DNA of 40,018 bases from Chitinophagaceae bacterium (lineage in GTDB: Bacteria > Bacteroidota > Bacteroidia > Chitinophagales > Chitinophagaceae), in contig JAHEZD010000004.1 in NCBI GenBank assembly GCA_023251255.1, forward strand, positions 1 to 40,018, in the 5' to 3' direction. Each line of letters starts with the position of its first letter. Position 1 is the stretch's first letter. The notes beneath the pieces are model-generated. The model had not been told where the DNA came from. It made no database searches and saw nothing but the letters and a program-made list of their open reading frames with translations. A program made the position numbers and the translations under genes. Below are positions 19,520-35,984 of the stretch, piece by piece.

Positions 19520-20590
19520 TTAATTAATTATTTGATCAATAAAATCCGTGTTCAAAATCCTGTCCCTTTTCAAAAAGCCTTTGAGTAATTGGGTTATCTT
19601 TTCATGCTCCAATAAAAAGCCATCATGCCCATAATAGGATTGGATAATGGCCAGCTCCGATACTGGAATATGTTCAGCCAGGAACTCCTGCTCAGGAATG
19701 GGGAACAGGATATCGCTTTTGATGCTGATCAGCAACGTCTTTGCTGCTATATTTTTCAGGGCTTCAACAACACTGCCCCTTCCGCGGCCAACATTGTGCG
19801 TATCCATTGCCCTGCTTAAAAACCAGTAGCTAAAAGCATTGAAGCGGTTGGCCAGTTTTTCACCTTGATAAGCTTGGTATGTTTCTGCCTTGAACACCTG
19901 TTCATCCACAGGCAAGCTGTCATCAAATACACCAGTTTGTGTTTCTGTATAGGCTTGGTAATGCCTGTAAGAAATCAGTGCCAATGACCTTGCTGTTTTC
20001 ATGCCTTCAATACCAGCATCGTTCTTTTGTTCCTTCCAAGTGGGGTCGTTTTCAATGCACATACGTTGGCTTTTATTGAAAGCAATACCCCAAGGTGAAT
20101 GCTGTGCATTGGTGGCTATGGGAACAATATATTCAAACAGCTCCGGTTGCTCAACAGCCCATTCCAGCAATTGCTGGCCACCCATACTTCCCCCAATGCC
20201 CATGTAGATTGTGGAGATGCCCAAATGTTCTTTCAGCAATTGATAGGCACTGATCATGTCCCTTGTGGTGAACAGTGGGAAGTTGTGGTAATAAGGTTCA
20301 TTGGTAATTGGATTAATGTCCAATGGGCCAATACTACCATAGCAGCTACCCGGCATGTTCACACAAATAATAAAATGCTGCTGCGGATTGATGATGCAGC
20401 CATCGCCAACAACACCGGGCCACCATTCTATGGGGTTGCTGTTAGCTGTAAGTGCATGGAAAACCCAAACTACATTGCTTTTGGCTGCATTTAGTTTCCC
20501 CAATGTGTTGTAGGCCAAATGCAGTTGCGGCAATGATTTGCCACTTTCTAATTGGAACGAATGCTTGTATTCAAATGTTTGATAGGACAT
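19520..20590 (-). CDS. metX: homoserine O-acetyltransferase
   Basis: Acetylates homoserine with acetyl-CoA, activating it for direct sulfhydrylation. Alpha/beta-hydrolase fold: VWVFHALTANSNPIEWWPGVVG near the oxyanion region, nucleophile Ser in GIGGSMGGQQLLEWA, catalytic Asp in SDILFPIPEQ, and His in YYGHDGFLLE near the C-terminus. I choose the ATG at 20590 (356 residues, starting MSYQTFEYKHSF). The longer in-frame start at 20704 adds 38 residues that are translated from a TTCAA-rich palindromic leader repeat and have no family counterpart. It lies between metY and hom in one operon. Acetyl rather than succinyl specificity follows from the MetX-MetY pairing. Confidence 0.95.
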   Translation of the reverse strand: MSYQTFEYKHSFQLESGKSLPQLHLAYNTLGKLNAAKSNVVWVFHALTANSNPIEWWPGVVGDGCIINPQQHFIICVNMPGSCYGSIGPLDINPITNEPYYHNFPLFTTRDMISAYQLLKEHLGISTIYMGIGGSMGGQQLLEWAVEQPELFEYIVPIATNAQHSPWGIAFNKSQRMCIENDPTWKEQKNDAGIEGMKTARSLALISYRHYQAYTETQTGVFDDSLPVDEQVFKAETYQAYQGEKLANRFNAFSYWFLSRAMDTHNVGRGRGSVVEALKNIAAKTLLISIKSDILFPIPEQEFLAEHIPVSELAIIQSYYGHDGFLLEHEKITQLLKGFLKRDRILNTDFIDQIIN

Positions 20591-20626
20591 TTCTTGGTTC
20601 TGCTGTTTTTTGGTTGGTGTGAAGAA

Positions 20627-20694
20627 GTTCAAATGTTTGAAAGTTCCATTGTTCACAAGTTCAATTGTCCTTCCGCTTCGATTAACATTTGAAC
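20627..20694. repeat. TTCAA-rich palindromic leader element before metX
   Basis: GTTCAAATGTT (20627-20637) and AACATTTGAAC (20684-20694) form a perfect 11-bp inverted repeat, with further TTGAAC/GTTCAA units between them. Nearly the same start, AAGTTCAAATGTT, recurs in the cysI leader (34221-34233). It occupies the metY-metX gap and would fold into a hairpin in the mRNA just before metX. Confidence 0.6.
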
Positions 20695-20718
20695 TATTGA
20701 ACAATGAAACGCCTGGAA

Positions 20719-22059
<1,341 letters not shown>

Positions 22060-22429: not shown

Positions 22430-22477
22430 GTCATACTGAGCTTGTCGAAGCCTGCCTGCCGGCAAAGGCAGGTATGA
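22430..22477 (+). repeat. dispersed palindromic repeat, copy A
   Basis: GTCATACTGAGCTTGTCGAA followed by a GC hairpin (CCTGCC ... GGCAGG). The outer ends TCATAC and GTATGA are inverted repeats, so the whole 48-base unit can fold. It belongs to the GTCA(N)nCTGAGC(C/T)TGTCGAAG family seen nine times between 22.4 and 38.6 kb. Confidence 0.75.
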
Positions 22478-22490
22478 TTAACGAAATCTT

Positions 22491-22540
22491 CGTTCTTAAA
22501 CGGTAATGTCAGGTTGAGCCTGTCGAAACCGCTTAAGAAT
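22491..22540 (+). repeat. dispersed palindromic repeat, copy B
   Basis: The core GTCAGGTTGAGCCTGTCGAA (22508-22527) is flanked by an imperfect inverted repeat, CGTTCTTAAACGG (22491-22503) and CCGCTTAAGAAT (22529-22540). The flanking arms differ from those of the other copies, suggesting each copy has acquired or kept its own stem. Confidence 0.7.
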
Positions 22541-22613: not shown

Positions 22614-22641
22614 AAGCCCATCTGGTAAGTCAGATGGGCTT
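22614..22641 (-). terminator. riboswitch-controlled intrinsic terminator
   Basis: The perfect 11-bp stem AAGCCCATCTG (22614-22624) / CAGATGGGCTT (22631-22641) has a 6-base loop. In the minus direction it runs into a tract of seven T. Its minus-strand 5' arm and loop contain TCTGACTTA (plus 22626-22634 reads TAAGTCAGA). This is perfectly complementary to TAAGTCAGA formed by the 3' strand of riboswitch helix P1 (plus 22683-22691 reads TCTGACTTA). It is therefore the expression platform of the SAM-I riboswitch. Confidence 0.9.
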
Positions 22642-22686: not shown

Positions 22687-22845
22687 ACTTATCTCTGGTT
22701 CTTGTCATGCTGAGCCTGCCTATCAGCAGATAGGCCTGTCGAAGCATAGACAAAAAACTTTGAGTTTGCACCTTCTTTTAGCTGAGTAAACTAAAAGGGT
22801 TGCAAAGGTTTCATTGGGCAAATCCCTCCACCTTTCTTGATAAGT
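22687..22845 (-). ncRNA. SAM-I (S-box) riboswitch aptamer upstream of metY-metX-hom
   Basis: Read on the minus strand, the sequence has the S-box landmarks in order: CTTATCAAGA (P1 5' side and kink-turn), GGTGGAGGGA, GCCCAATGAAACC (pseudoknot/P2 region), GCAACC, a 7-bp P3 (CTTTTAG/CTAAAAG), and AAGGTGC. P1 is ACTTATC (plus 22839-22845) pairing perfectly with GATAAGT (plus 22687-22693). The P4 arm (about 22694-22764) is unusually long because it contains a whole copy of a dispersed genomic palindrome. SAM binding should stabilise P1, leave the terminator at 22614-22641 free to form, and switch off methionine synthesis genes downstream. Without SAM the P1 3' strand can pair with the terminator loop. 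Confidence 0.93.
22704..22747 (+). repeat. dispersed palindromic repeat, copy C, inside riboswitch P4
   Basis: GTCATGCTGAGCCTG, then hairpin CCTATC-AGCA-GATAGG, then CCTGTCGAAGCATA. This is the form of the family that carries an internal hairpin, as in copy D at 30570-30612. On the RNA (minus) strand it forms the distal part of SAM-I helix P4, extended by TTTTTTGTC/GACAAGAA at its base. Confidence 0.8.
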
Positions 22846-22862
22846 AATTGTTTAAAGAACTT

Positions 22863-22918
22863 GCCTACTATCAGGTAGGCTGGTGCAAAAGTATAAGTGA
22901 GCGAATGGAATGGCCAAA
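22863..22918 (-). promoter_or_regulatory. candidate promoter and operator of the met operon
   Basis: On the minus strand, TACTTTTG (22886-22893) matches the Bacteroidota -7 element TAnnTTTG, and TTTG (22915-22918) lies 21 bases upstream as a -33 element. Transcription would start near 22880, about 35 bases before the riboswitch. A palindrome, GCCTAC-TATCAG-GTAGGC (22863-22880), covers this start point. It resembles the CCTAC-N7-GTAGG sites upstream of cysH and cysD but with one base less in the spacer. It is a candidate repressor site. Confidence 0.5.
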
Positions 22919-23332: not shown

Positions 23333-25471
23333 TTACTCAGGTTCAGCTATCCCAAGAAAAATCACCACCCCATCGCCACCAGGATTATCAGCCACATCTA
23401 CCAGTGCCGAAGGTTTCCAGTTATTCATGCACCATAAGTTACCAGCACCATCAATATTGGTGGATGTTAACCGCATAATAGGTTGGTAGCATTTCACACG
23501 GACAGGTGTATAGGTGGGTACCCCTTGAATAAGGAATACGGGTTCCCCCGGTCTGGTCTGCGTGCCGTAAAGTGGCAGTCCGTTGGCAAGCATCACTTCA
23601 GCACCTCCCGTTGGAACGGTAAGCAGTTGGGCGGTATCAGGTTTGGATGCATCGCGGAGCATGGTTACGCCAAACGGTCCCTCCAGGTCAAAACTGCCGT
23701 CTTTCACGGAACCGGTATCATGCCCAAAATTGGCCAGGAACACTGTTTGGTTCTTATCTATTTTTACGCCCCAAGGAGCGTATGTATGTGTATCATAATA
23801 ACCCTTAATGGTAGAAAGGTCATTGGAGAGTACTGTTGCCCTGCTGCTCGTAACCCCCACTACCACCACATCCCCCTCTCCATTGATGTTCACCTGGCGG
23901 AGTGACTCAAAGCCCTTTTGCTTATTGATGGAACTGTAATAATCACTGTACCAACTGTTTTTCACCACCAACCTGTTACCCTCAATGGTTACTTTGTAAA
24001 CAGCCGAAAGCACACAGTTATCGGCAACATCGCTATCATAATTGCCGATGCAGGAAACATAGGCACTTCCCAGGTTATCAGGCGTTACATCAAATACTTT
24101 AAGGTAGGGCGTTCTTAACGGTACAGGGTCTGCTGCTGCCGTTTGTTTAACAGGGAATTCATCGCAGATCAATACATTCCCTGCTGTGGGTTCCCCGTTC
24201 AGGTACACTACTACGGCGCTTGGCTCGCTTTTGAATGGATAGACACCTGTGGGTGCCGGGGCAAAGGGATCCTGGCACCCTACAGAAGCCATCCATAGAT
24301 TGCCGGATACATCGTATTCCATTCCCTGCACGCGCGACAGCCCAATAGTATAGCCATTGGATGGGCTTATTGGTTGGCCGTCCTTATAATAGAAGCGGGA
24401 AATACTTCCTTCCTGCGGATTGTTAAGCTCGGGTCCCCATCCAAAATTGCCGAAGGAAATGTATTCTTTCTTGGGGTCTATCGCAGCCCCGAATGCCACG
24501 CCCAGCAATCCTCCACCCTGCACGGGGGAGAAATCCGTGGGCACCGCATTGTAGGCATAAACTGGGCAATGGGTTCCTGAAAGATTGGACCCTGCCCTGA
24601 AATTATTGGCCACCCATGCATTATCGTCCTTGTCAAACACCACGAATGCAAGCCCACTCGGAATAAAGTTCTTTGCGCCCGATGAATTGTTCTTTAAGGT
24701 AAGTGTCCAATTATTGGGTGCTTTTTCATCATCCCGTACATCCATAGAAGTAAGCGAATCTCCATAGATTTCCTCCCTGCCCACCAGCATTTGATAGATA
24801 TTGCCAGCATTGGTAAATGGGTCCCGCAGCATGTTCCTCACCGCCTGGAGGAAATTGCCATTTGGCATATCTTCTTCATGCCAAGCATAGTCGAGGAACT
24901 GGTCATAGAACAGTTTTCCAGAAGAAACCATAGGGTTGGTTAAGCAGTAATAAAACAGGTTGCACAGTGAATTGAACATGGGATAGCTGTTCGTTTCAAA
25001 TCCATTGGGCGATTGTTTGATCATATCCGCCACGGCCCCTTCCGTCTGGTAAAAGTGCTGCTTCATACCGTAAGCAATCTTCATGTTGCGTTCGGTGCCA
25101 CTCATATTTACCCAACCATCGTTTGCAACAGTTGTCATACGGGCAAACGTATAAATGGACGCGATAGATGATTCAGGGCAAACCCTCACCTCATTGCCAA
25201 CAGTAGGTAAATGGAATGTTGCCAAAAGGTTTACAGGGTTATCTGATATGGTTTTCGGAACCCCATTGATGGTATAAGTGTTTACCAAAACCGTTATGGC
25301 AAAATAGGCAGAGCCGCCTTCGGCTAACTCAACGCTAAAGCTATTTCCTGAAAATGAGCTTGAGTAAGCAGTGCCAACATATCCGCTGACAATACCCCGG
25401 ATTTCACACTGACCCGAAGTGATTTCAAGGTTCTTAACATCAACATTGAATTGAATAGTTTTTGTAGGCAT
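23333..25471 (-). CDS. unrecognised protein with beta-propeller-like (NHL/Vgb-like) repeats
   Basis: 712 residues with no signal peptide or membrane segment. I do not recognise a named family. The N-terminal 100 residues look like a beta-sandwich (TIQFNVDVKNLEITSGQCEI). About 100-260 contain helical segments rich in aromatic residues. From about 265 to the end there are recurrent strand motifs with D-x-x-GN-x-W (KDDNAWVANNF, YDVSGNLWMASVG, DNLGSAYVSCIG, IDGAGNLWCMNNW). These resemble NHL or streptogramin-lyase-like propeller blades, each reporting a value along a path. The coding sequence is richer in G+C than the neighbouring metabolic genes. With the 253-residue gene upstream it forms a minus-strand pair between a MITE-like element and a palindrome cluster. 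Function is unknown. Confidence 0.7.
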   Translation of the reverse strand: MPTKTIQFNVDVKNLEITSGQCEIRGIVSGYVGTAYSSSFSGNSFSVELAEGGSAYFAITVLVNTYTINGVPKTISDNPVNLLATFHLPTVGNEVRVCPESSIASIYTFARMTTVANDGWVNMSGTERNMKIAYGMKQHFYQTEGAVADMIKQSPNGFETNSYPMFNSLCNLFYYCLTNPMVSSGKLFYDQFLDYAWHEEDMPNGNFLQAVRNMLRDPFTNAGNIYQMLVGREEIYGDSLTSMDVRDDEKAPNNWTLTLKNNSSGAKNFIPSGLAFVVFDKDDNAWVANNFRAGSNLSGTHCPVYAYNAVPTDFSPVQGGGLLGVAFGAAIDPKKEYISFGNFGWGPELNNPQEGSISRFYYKDGQPISPSNGYTIGLSRVQGMEYDVSGNLWMASVGCQDPFAPAPTGVYPFKSEPSAVVVYLNGEPTAGNVLICDEFPVKQTAAADPVPLRTPYLKVFDVTPDNLGSAYVSCIGNYDSDVADNCVLSAVYKVTIEGNRLVVKNSWYSDYYSSINKQKGFESLRQVNINGEGDVVVVGVTSSRATVLSNDLSTIKGYYDTHTYAPWGVKIDKNQTVFLANFGHDTGSVKDGSFDLEGPFGVTMLRDASKPDTAQLLTVPTGGAEVMLANGLPLYGTQTRPGEPVFLIQGVPTYTPVRVKCYQPIMRLTSTNIDGAGNLWCMNNWKPSALVDVADNPGGDGVVIFLGIAEPE

Positions 25472-25660: not shown

Positions 25661-25833
25661 GCCAGGTTGGGGCTGTCTTTGCCGATAGGCCGATGGAATT
25701 CCACATCGTATGATCTTTGCCCGCCCCACCATTCGGGCAGGAGCGGAACAAGGCGTATTTTGGGCGGGCCTTCTTTTTGCTAGCAGGCAACTCCATTTTC
25801 ACACCACCTCCTTCGCTTCTCCTTCGTGTCTTC

Positions 25834-25937
25834 TTCGGTACTCCTTCGGTGGTTCTTCGGTAGGGCTTCGGTGTGTACCGAACAGGTACCGAACATGGAC
25901 CGAAGGAGTACCGAACAAGTACCGAACAACGTTCGGT
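25834..25937. repeat. TTCGGT/ACCGAA palindrome cluster
   Basis: TTCGGTACTCCTTCGGT (25834-25850) and its exact reverse complement (25899-25915) form a perfect 17-bp inverted repeat. Between and beyond them are further TTCGGT units, then ACCGAA units, ending with a final TTCGGT at 25932-25937. About ten units of 6 bases appear in 100 bases. The arrangement would allow several alternative cruciforms. Confidence 0.7.
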
Positions 25938-26860: not shown

Positions 26861-27021
26861 CAATAAATAATTGATTTATAGGTAGAAGCAGGAAAAAAAT
26901 ATTTGTGACACAGGGTTAGGAATAACAATTTGGCTGCTGCGAAGGAAGAACCCTTAACTGATTGTACCAGTAACGATGGGCAGGCTAAATAGTTAAAACC
27001 TGCTGCCTCCTGTTATGGATG

Positions 27022-27104
27022 TCCTATATTTCTCCCATACTTCTCCTATATCTGTCCCATATCAATTCTATATATCTCCCATATCTGGCACATATATGTC
27101 CTAC
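27022..27104. repeat. degenerate tandem repeat of about 11 bases
   Basis: About seven imperfect units related to CCATATCTSTC occur in a row (for example CTATATTTCTC, CCATACTTCTC, CTATATCTGTC, CCATATCAATT, CCATATCTGG). The period drifts between 10 and 12 bases. It is strand-biased: pyrimidines and TA steps on the plus strand. It has no recognisable function; it could be curved DNA near the cys promoter. Confidence 0.5.
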
Positions 27105-34310: not shown

Positions 34311-35984
34311 ATGTCCAACGAAAAAAAACTTTCCCACGTAGAAAAAATAAAAACCAGTAGCGATGGGTTGCGCGGCACTTTAAAAGAAAGTCTGCAGGAC
34401 GACTTCACAGGTTCCTTGCGTGAAGATGACCAATCACTCATAAAATTCCATGGTCTTTATCAGCAGGATGATAGGGACAGGAGGGAAGAGCGTTCAGCCA
34501 AAAAATTGGAATGGCTCTATTCCTTCATGATCCGTTTACGTTTGCCTGGTGGTTTTCTCACACCCGAGCAATGGGTTGGCCTGCATCATATTGCTGGTGA
34601 ACATTCAACAGGTGTTATAAAAATTACCACCCGTCAAACTGTACAATTGCATGGCATTGTAAAGAGCCATATCAAACCCACCATACAAGCATTTGATACC
34701 TTGAAGCTGGATTCCATAGCAGCTTGTGGGGATGTGAACAGGAATGTATTGTGCTCACCAAATCCAAAGCAATCTTCTTTGCACGAGGAAATTTATGCCT
34801 ATGCAGACGAGATAAGCAGGTTGCTATTACCAAAGACCAGAAGCTACTACGATATCTGGTTGGATGAAGAAAAACTGGCAGAACATAGCGAAGAGGACCC
34901 ATTGTACCAAGATAGGTACTTGCCCCGTAAATTCAAGATTGCCATTGCCATTCCACCCAATAATGATGTGGATGTTTTTGCCAACGACATTGGTTTGATA
35001 GCAATCATCAACAATGGGAGATTAAAGGGATTCAACATTGCAGTTGGTGGCGGACTGTCTGCTACACATGGTAACCCCGCTACTTATGCAAGGGCTGCAA
35101 CGGTTATTGGCTTTGCTGGTACCAAGGAGCAATTGTTCAAGGCAGTGTATGAAATCATCACCATTCAACGTGATTATGGAAACCGCAGTGATAGGAAATT
35201 GGCAAGGTTGAAATACACCATTGACAATATGGGTATCGAAGCTTTCAAAGCAGAGCTCAACAAAAGAATAGGGTATACGTTAGAAGAGGAAAAGCCTTAC
35301 AGCTTTACAGAACGCAGGGATTATTATGGTTGGGAGCAATGCGATAAAGGTTTATGGCATTATACTGTGTTTGTGGAGAATGGGAGGGTGCTGGATGAAG
35401 AGAACCTTGCCCTAAAGACGGCATTACTGGAACTTGCCGAAACGGGCAAAGCCAATTTCCGTTTTACAGGTAATCAGAATGTTATTTTAACGGATGTGCA
35501 AGCCGTGGATAAAAACACCATCAACGATATCCTAGCAAAATATAAAATAATTGAACACACCAACAATGCGTCAGGCCTGCGCAAGAACGCCATGGCCTGT
35601 GTGGCTTTGCCAACATGTCCTTTGGCATTGGCCGAAGCACAACGTTACCTGCCTTCATTGATTGATAAAATTGAGCCGTTGCTAACCAAACACCAATTGC
35701 AAGATGAGGAGATTATCACACGAATGACTGGCTGTCCCAATGGTTGTGGACGGTCGGCCATTTCTGAAATTGGCTTCATTGGTACGGCTGCCGGCAAATA
35801 CAATTTGCAGTTAGGCGGTGATTATGAAGGTTATCGTTTAAACAAAACCTATAAGGAGCATCTTGACGAAGATGGGCTTTTACAAGAGCTGGACGGCTTA
35901 TTCCTATCTTTTAAGAATGAAAGGAACAGGGAAGAAAAGTTTGGTGATTTCACCAAACGGAAATATTTGGCAGATAGGCTTTAA
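34311..35984 (+). CDS. cysI: sulfite reductase hemoprotein (siroheme, 4Fe-4S)
   Basis: Six-electron reduction of sulfite to sulfide using siroheme coupled to a 4Fe-4S cluster. The cluster-binding cysteines are visible: C-x5-C in MACVALPTCPLAL (about residue 430) and C-x3-C in TGCPNGCGRSAISEIGFIG (about 478). Other conserved parts are GVIKITTRQTVQLHGI, DVNRNVLCSP and YLPRKFKIAIAIPPNNDVDVFANDIGLI. I set the start at ATG 34311 (557 residues, MSNEKKLSHVEKIK), typical for the family. Electrons come from the CysJ-type protein just upstream. The cofactor comes from hemC/D, hemB, cobA and the Met8-like domain in the same cluster. hemC starts 8 bases after the stop. Confidence 0.96.
   Translation: MSNEKKLSHVEKIKTSSDGLRGTLKESLQDDFTGSLREDDQSLIKFHGLYQQDDRDRREERSAKKLEWLYSFMIRLRLPGGFLTPEQWVGLHHIAGEHSTGVIKITTRQTVQLHGIVKSHIKPTIQAFDTLKLDSIAACGDVNRNVLCSPNPKQSSLHEEIYAYADEISRLLLPKTRSYYDIWLDEEKLAEHSEEDPLYQDRYLPRKFKIAIAIPPNNDVDVFANDIGLIAIINNGRLKGFNIAVGGGLSATHGNPATYARAATVIGFAGTKEQLFKAVYEIITIQRDYGNRSDRKLARLKYTIDNMGIEAFKAELNKRIGYTLEEEKPYSFTERRDYYGWEQCDKGLWHYTVFVENGRVLDEENLALKTALLELAETGKANFRFTGNQNVILTDVQAVDKNTINDILAKYKIIEHTNNASGLRKNAMACVALPTCPLALAEAQRYLPSLIDKIEPLLTKHQLQDEEIITRMTGCPNGCGRSAISEIGFIGTAAGKYNLQLGGDYEGYRLNKTYKEHLDEDGLLQELDGLFLSFKNERNREEKFGDFTKRKYLADRL

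Follow-up and report, generated by a model that had tools for sequence, protein, structure and literature searches.

How does a dispersed, many-copy palindrome come to form the arm of a riboswitch, and what keeps it there? The question is raised by a stretch of 40,018 nucleotides from a Chitinophagaceae bacterium (hereafter the window), in which the repeat TGTCATGCTGAGCCTG...CCTGTCGAAGCA lies at 22703-22746, within the P4 arm of a SAM-I riboswitch. A first-pass annotation of this DNA had described such an arrangement, and both the Rfam match (65.1 bits) and the minimum free energy (MFE) fold, in which the repeat is distal in P4, confirm it.

Riboswitches carry "variable insertions" and accept stem-loop insertions (Barrick and Breaker 2007, PMC2258182); the available portion of that paper does not give the origin of these insertions, whereas the insert in the window is an identifiable dispersed repeat. 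REP and REPIN elements, with RAYT, are portrayed in the available portions of two further papers as imperfect palindromes, short and present in high copy, that carry a near-invariant tag (GT[AG]G or CGTC) and often stand in inverted pairs (PMC3733652, PMC6006769).

Results

A SAM-I riboswitch upstream of methionine genes

The sole Rfam match at the gathering threshold in the window is SAM (RF00162), at 22846-22717 of the minus strand, with 65.1 bits against a gathering cut-off of 44.4; in the 6.1-Mb genome, one RF00162 match was found among the 150 of 625 candidates that were scored. In 5' to 3' order the minus strand carries a promoter-like sequence, the SAM-I aptamer, a terminator, a gap of about 560 nt, metY and a metX-like gene. 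The covariance-model match, the P1-P4 four-way junction present in the MFE fold of 22846-22683 (all folds computed here are pseudoknot-free), the methionine genes downstream and the terminator with its antiterminator are all shared with the SAM-I (S-box) class RF00162; the difference is a P4 of 74 nt, most of it dispersed repeat. The features are listed below, where G001, G007 and G008 denote genomes of the same genus.

22886-22918, minus strand: promoter-like TTTG-N21-TAnnTTTG, read from the sequence
22687-22845, minus strand: SAM-I aptamer, P1 to P1', with the boundary set here (Rfam: 22717-22846); RF00162, 65.1 bits; MFE -51.8 kcal/mol
22839-22845, minus strand: P1 5' strand ACUUAUC, seven Watson-Crick pairs with 22693-22687
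22694-22767, minus strand: P4 arm, 74 nt, between AAGGTGC and GATAAG
22687-22693, minus strand: P1 3' strand GAUAAGU, also the start of the antiterminator strand; identical in G001, G007 and G008
22616-22639, minus strand: intrinsic terminator hairpin, followed by a U run at 22615-22609; -19.0 kcal/mol alone
22626-22634, minus strand: terminator segment complementary to the antiterminator 22691-22683, paired in the MFE fold of 22693-22600 (-26.5 kcal/mol)
20719-22059, minus strand: metY, O-acetylhomoserine sulfhydrylase (TIGR01326, 681.2 bits, cut-off 495.1)
19520-20704, minus strand: metX-like homoserine O-acyltransferase (TIGR01392, 335.6 bits versus 500, under the curated cut-offs)

We take TTTG-N21-TAnnTTTG to be the Bacteroidetes promoter consensus; TAnnTTTG is present in the leaders of G001 and G007 too. 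Between promoter and P1 lies a short palindrome (22860-22879, no strand assigned) similar to the inner palindrome of the repeat, with 3 mismatches, and absent from the otherwise matching G001 leader.

Where P1 ends decides to which helix the repeat belongs. In the Rfam alignment (65.1 bits) the partner of the P1 5' strand is UGAUAGG at 22725-22719, within the repeat, which would thus be part of P1 and not of P4. An alternative partner, GAUAAGU at 22693-22687, offers seven Watson-Crick pairs and is the one used in the MFE fold of 22846-22683 (-51.8 kcal/mol), which comprises P1, P2, P3 and a long P4; with the P1 of Rfam forced, the energy is -35.7 kcal/mol, 16 kcal/mol worse. The GAUAAGUCAGA strand is, moreover, unchanged in G001, G007 and G008 and complementary to the terminator. 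Because of the energy penalty and the conservation of the 22693-22687 strand, we reject the Rfam placement of P1' and consider a repeat lying inside P1 extremely improbable. With P1 closed by 22693-22687, the repeat is the distal part of P4, and the stem TTTTTTGTC/GACAAGAA that flanks it is paired, extending the stem of the repeat as the first-pass annotation had it. That annotation had also held that the aptamer stays intact, and had named disruption of P1 or P3 by the repeat as the contrary outcome; the predicted fold keeps P1-P4, with P1 and P3 formed and the repeat in P4.

The segment 22691-22683 (UAAGUCAGA) complements 22634-22626 of the terminator. Folding of 22693-22600 yields the antiterminator (-26.5 kcal/mol) and, when the P1 3' strand is blocked, the terminator (-24.0 kcal/mol). 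AGAGATAAGTCAGAG is retained in G001, G007 and G008 and, on reading, the G001 terminator differs from that of the window by a paired change and by another that creates a wobble. By terminating transcription, the riboswitch would switch off metY and the metX-like gene: in the presence of SAM, P1 would form, its 3' strand would be unavailable and the terminator at 22639-22616 would form, whereas in its absence this strand would pair with the 5' half of the terminator and transcription would continue. For a longer leader (251 or 247 nt) the MFE fold lacks P1 (-78.1 kcal/mol, versus -75.8 kcal/mol with P1 forced); this prediction counts against the model, yet it does not decide the matter for an RNA with a ligand and with co-transcriptional folding.

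The repeat belongs to a REP-like family

22703-22746, plus strand: REP-like repeat, with tag TGTCA (22703-22707), arm TGC (22708-22710), core (22711-22743) and arm GCA (22744-22746)
22715-22734, no strand assigned: second palindrome in the repeat core (CCTGCCTATCAGCAGATAGG), missing from the G001 arm, which is 21 nt shorter
22430-22451, plus strand: further repeat copy, between terminator and metY
22508-22529, plus strand: further repeat copy, between terminator and metY

The copy in P4 reads TGTCA-TGC-TGAGCC...GGCCTGTCGAA-GCA. Eight other copies were counted in the window, the number given originally: six on the plus strand (22430, 22508, 30569, 32465, 36582 and 38540) and two on the minus strand (about 30512 and 38591), leaving aside a match of 67% at 35845 and another, weak and in a coding frame, at 25319. 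The core is common to these copies and the arms vary; two others besides the P4 copy have an enlarged core. With up to three mismatches, GTCATGCTGAGCNNGNCGAAGC has 5 matches in the window, the enlarged P4 copy not among them, versus 0.02 in shuffles, and the near-identical GTCATGCTGAGCNTGTCGAAGC has 173 copies in the genome versus 0 for the reversed pattern. The inner palindrome of the window arm resembles those at 22860-22879 and 30581 and has few copies, a count that includes duplicates from overlapping loci.

A sample of 45 distinct copies was taken from the window and from 33 loci of its own genome; some are related tandem copies, and the core is imposed by the search pattern. The tag TGTCA is present in 40 of them. 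The base triplets that border the core are fully complementary to each other in 36 of the 45, in 11 versions (shuffles: mean 7.6, maximum 18 in 10,000). Among the roughly 100 of the 173 places that were listed, copies on opposite strands form 11 pairs whose starts are 47-53 bp apart. In being a short, high-copy imperfect palindrome with a near-invariant tag and inverted pairs of the BIME/REPIN kind, the repeat resembles REP elements as the available portions of PMC3733652 and PMC6006769 describe them; the unpaired tag is TGTCA, which has GTC in common with CGTC, and is neither GT[AG]G nor CGTC. Since this tag is not canonical, we write REP-like rather than REP: judged by these sequence traits, the repeat is a REP-like hairpin family.

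An Rfam scan of 26 of 30 loci taken from the repeat matches in the genome (L038, L041, L054 and L061 being left out) and of three transposase loci gave no structured RNA at the gathering threshold; the 8 matches obtained were the 8 riboswitch loci included as positives. Within the genus, G003 has 57 matches to the repeat core in a 2.6-Mb genome with no SAM-I match, and the counted congeners of 2.2-3.1 Mb have 0-11. The window also contains repeats of 11-bp period at 27013-27101 and, at 25823-25929, an array of TTCGGT/ACCGAA units that form a 50-nt inverted repeat.

Candidate mobilising enzymes

The genome has three Y1_Tnp genes (L067, L068 and L069). L069 scores 98.2, versus 80 for the NCBI cut-off of REP-associated transposases, and is flanked by structures unlike the repeat. 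These flanks of the RAYT-class gene, at 1000-1246 and 1818-2050 of the locus, carry ATCCGTAG...CTACGGAT arms. L067 scored as IS200 (73.3 versus 55), and a perfect copy of the repeat lies about 200 nt past it; around L068 or L069 no copy was found at up to 4 mismatches. A tie between the repeat and one particular transposase, sought among these three genes, was not found. The original suggestion of a mobile or REP-like element thus holds as far as a REP-like palindrome family goes, with the canonical tag absent and no cognate transposase established.

The P4 arm within the genus

A riboswitch match is present in 6 of 10 genomes of the genus. The arm from AAGGTGC to GATAAG measures 74 nt in the window, 53 nt in G001, G007 and G008, 28 nt in G005 and 30 nt in G004, where the enzyme encoded after the riboswitch is a more distant member of the same superfamily. 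G001, with 97% identity over 334 aligned MetY residues, has a short form of the repeat in its P4. It has the far flank TAGACA in common with the genome of the window (G000), and its arms are TGT/ACA versus TGC/GCA in the window; most simply, both genomes would have inherited the copy from a single insertion, and the arms would since have undergone a compensatory change. The 21 nt by which the window arm is longer hold the second palindrome.

G007 and G008 (92% in MetY) have an AT-rich P4 arm without the repeat, of the same 53 nt as that of G001, so that the genus offers no case of a short P4 receiving the repeat. The AT-rich arm may be a decayed copy of the repeat or an unrelated long arm. If the latter, a long P4 could be older in this part of the genus, and the repeat could have arisen in an existing long hairpin, replaced it or recombined into it; the small numbers of repeat-core matches in G007 (1) and G008 (6) agree with this, as does the equal arm length. 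The G007 arm, however, shows on reading the ATGC-N13-GCATGA spacing of the window arm, as a decayed copy could (p of about 0.05, a head estimate), and in another genus the repeat-bearing P4 of G274 has 47 nt versus 26-29 nt in four congeners. We consider an older long P4 somewhat unlikely and favour, at a probability of about 0.77, a SAM-I riboswitch in whose P4 hairpin a REP-like palindrome landed, was tolerated by the core and was kept as a longer P4.

The first-pass annotation had proposed to look for metY-linked orthologs with a short P4, and had named long, repeat-free P4 arms in all of them as the adverse case. Outside the genus the four metY-linked riboswitches measured do have short P4 arms (G341, 26 nt; G293, 30 nt; G367, 30 nt; the second riboswitch of G274, G274b, 31 nt), whereas the nearest repeat-free congeners, G007 and G008 with their 53 nt, come close to that adverse case. 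Arm lengths were measured at 28 of 32 loci, the expression missing L116, L119, L031 and L133; of these, L119 is likewise metY-linked and from outside the genus, making a fifth such locus, and its P4 looks short by eye.

Repeat-bearing riboswitch arms in other genera

The survey of the family covered 394 genomes, 303 of them with a SAM-I match. A pattern for P4 arms longer than about 36 nt matched 27 of the 394 genomes (reversed control: 1 genome); by reading, 19 of the 27 places are SAM-I riboswitches with a non-repeat P4, and four that look coding (G145, G072, G364 and G000:C93) were dropped. Longer P4 arms without the repeat are thus common in the family.

On reading, the matches across the 394 genomes include five riboswitches outside the genus with a REP-like copy in P3 or P4; they come from four genomes, which represent three other genera. 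The occurrence of such repeats in riboswitch arms thus extends beyond the window, which supports insertion. The P4 pattern, with the core in either orientation, matched 4 genomes, and no match of the reversed control was seen; the repeat is present in G001, G274 and G363, and G313 (two matches at one place) was dropped on reading. The enlarged copy of the window is not matched by this pattern. The P3 pattern, again in either orientation, matched 8 genomes versus 4 of 394 for its reversed control, so the P3 identifications rest on reading the sequences: the repeat is present in G013, G274b and G321, and G356, G335, G096 and G385 were dropped as having none. The P3 of G035 has another repeat-like motif (TGAGCGAAGCGAAG) in the opposite orientation and was not counted; it also contains TCTGAGCGAAGCGAAGGA (L141), which we take to resemble another dispersed Bacteroidota repeat.

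On the repeat strand the tag is exactly TGTCA in the first riboswitch of G274 (G274a), G363, G013 and G321, TGTTA in G001 and GATCA in G274b, with the core after each. The P4 stem of G363 reads CCCG-repeat-CGGG versus CCCGAAGGTTCGGG in its congener G341, a pair whose orthology is not assured, the G363 contig ending there. In the same G363 riboswitch (L142, L101) the P3 arm measures 53 nt and ends in GATGACAAAGGG; it may represent a second insertion. The four congeners with which the 47-nt P4 of G274 was compared have their riboswitches before similar genes, the one in G274 being presumably PAPS-reductase-like. In G321 and G274b the repeat in P3 is closed by an outer stem; in the MFE fold of G013 it pairs with other P3 sequence and has no hairpin of its own. 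P3 arms without the repeat measure 42 nt at L109 (G112, a congener of G013) and 50 nt at L118 (G013). All seven repeat-bearing aptamers keep P1 and P2 in their MFE folds.

A scan of contigs, in one orientation and with records very near the genome of the window possibly omitted, gave 8 loci and no G001-like record. By reading, two are SAM riboswitches with the repeat: L101, from the Chitinophagaceae isolate Chersky.15_85, is the same stretch as G363, and L103, from a Flavisolibacter MAG, the same as G274. Five have no riboswitch, and L098, apparently a SAM riboswitch that matches the repeat by chance, was set aside.

Apparently independent insertions and their expected number

Taken together, these cases imply about six independent insertion events, three in P4 and three in P3. 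P3 having been hit as often, P4 is not special. For a rough estimate of enrichment we used the first 200 of 371 genome rows, the genome of the window included, in which repeat cores exceed the reversed control by a mean of 13 per genome, and about 369 riboswitches tallied by hand, with 8, 12 or 100% of the genome taken as intergenic and a target of 15-70 nt per riboswitch. At 8-12% intergenic, 0.14-0.95 insertions are expected versus six seen (P of about 8e-9 to 5e-4); over all assumptions the expectation is 0.02-0.95 (1.2 without subtraction of the control), with P(>=6) of about 3e-14 to 5e-4. The window was chosen as a striking case, and without its event five remain, with P at most about 0.003. 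All six events share one orientation (two-sided binomial, about 0.03).

The apparent over-representation in riboswitch arms, together with the common orientation and the Rfam placement of P1' on UGAUAGG within the repeat, could point to an active regulatory part: a pause site, a protein-binding hairpin or a competitor of P1 acting through the inner GAUAGG. The competing P1, however, costs 16 kcal/mol and uses the inner palindrome missing from G001, and the orientation bias reaches merely p of about 0.03, so we hold such a role to be improbable. The evidence agrees with an insertion that was tolerated and retained as a helix; domestication of the repeat, in the sense of an added function, goes beyond it.

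Discussion

The course of events that we favour is tolerated insertion. The P4 hairpin would have received a REP-like palindrome before this genome and its congener G001 diverged, the copy in the genome of the window carrying an additional inner palindrome, and other genera would have acquired insertions of the same kind independently, both in P3 and in P4. A RAYT/IS200-type transposase may have mobilised the element. Because a palindrome at a hairpin tip folds on itself, the aptamer core would be unaffected and the insertion kept as a longer P4. Retention would have a simple cause, in that a palindrome at the tip does little harm while losing it imprecisely would impair the aptamer; alternatively, the element may prefer hairpins. 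Our best reading is that hairpin tips are where REP-like elements insert, and that tolerance by the aptamer lets them persist. A more tentative generalisation, to which we give slightly less than even odds, is that the tips of riboswitch hairpins receive such elements, or preferentially keep them, in a single orientation, and that these elements are a regular source of variable arms.

A search of open-licence papers gave none on REP-like elements forming riboswitch arms; within that literature, stem-loop insertions in riboswitches are known, and what is new here is that the insert is a REP-like dispersed repeat. STRR repeats were reportedly described in 1997 by Vioque in the RNase P RNA gene of cyanobacteria. 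They would likewise be dispersed short repeats inside a structured RNA gene, but tandem repeats in a ribozyme, whereas here a palindrome lies in a riboswitch.

In these riboswitches the origin of an insertion can be read, with a dispersed many-copy palindrome, several apparently independent cases and repeat-free relatives for comparison. The entry of new helices into structured RNAs, the hairpin preference of mobile repeats and the later function of such arms become testable thereby. Palindromes in arms suggest one way in which riboswitch RNAs gain new arms and, if this is true, mobile palindromes would be raw material for RNA structure.
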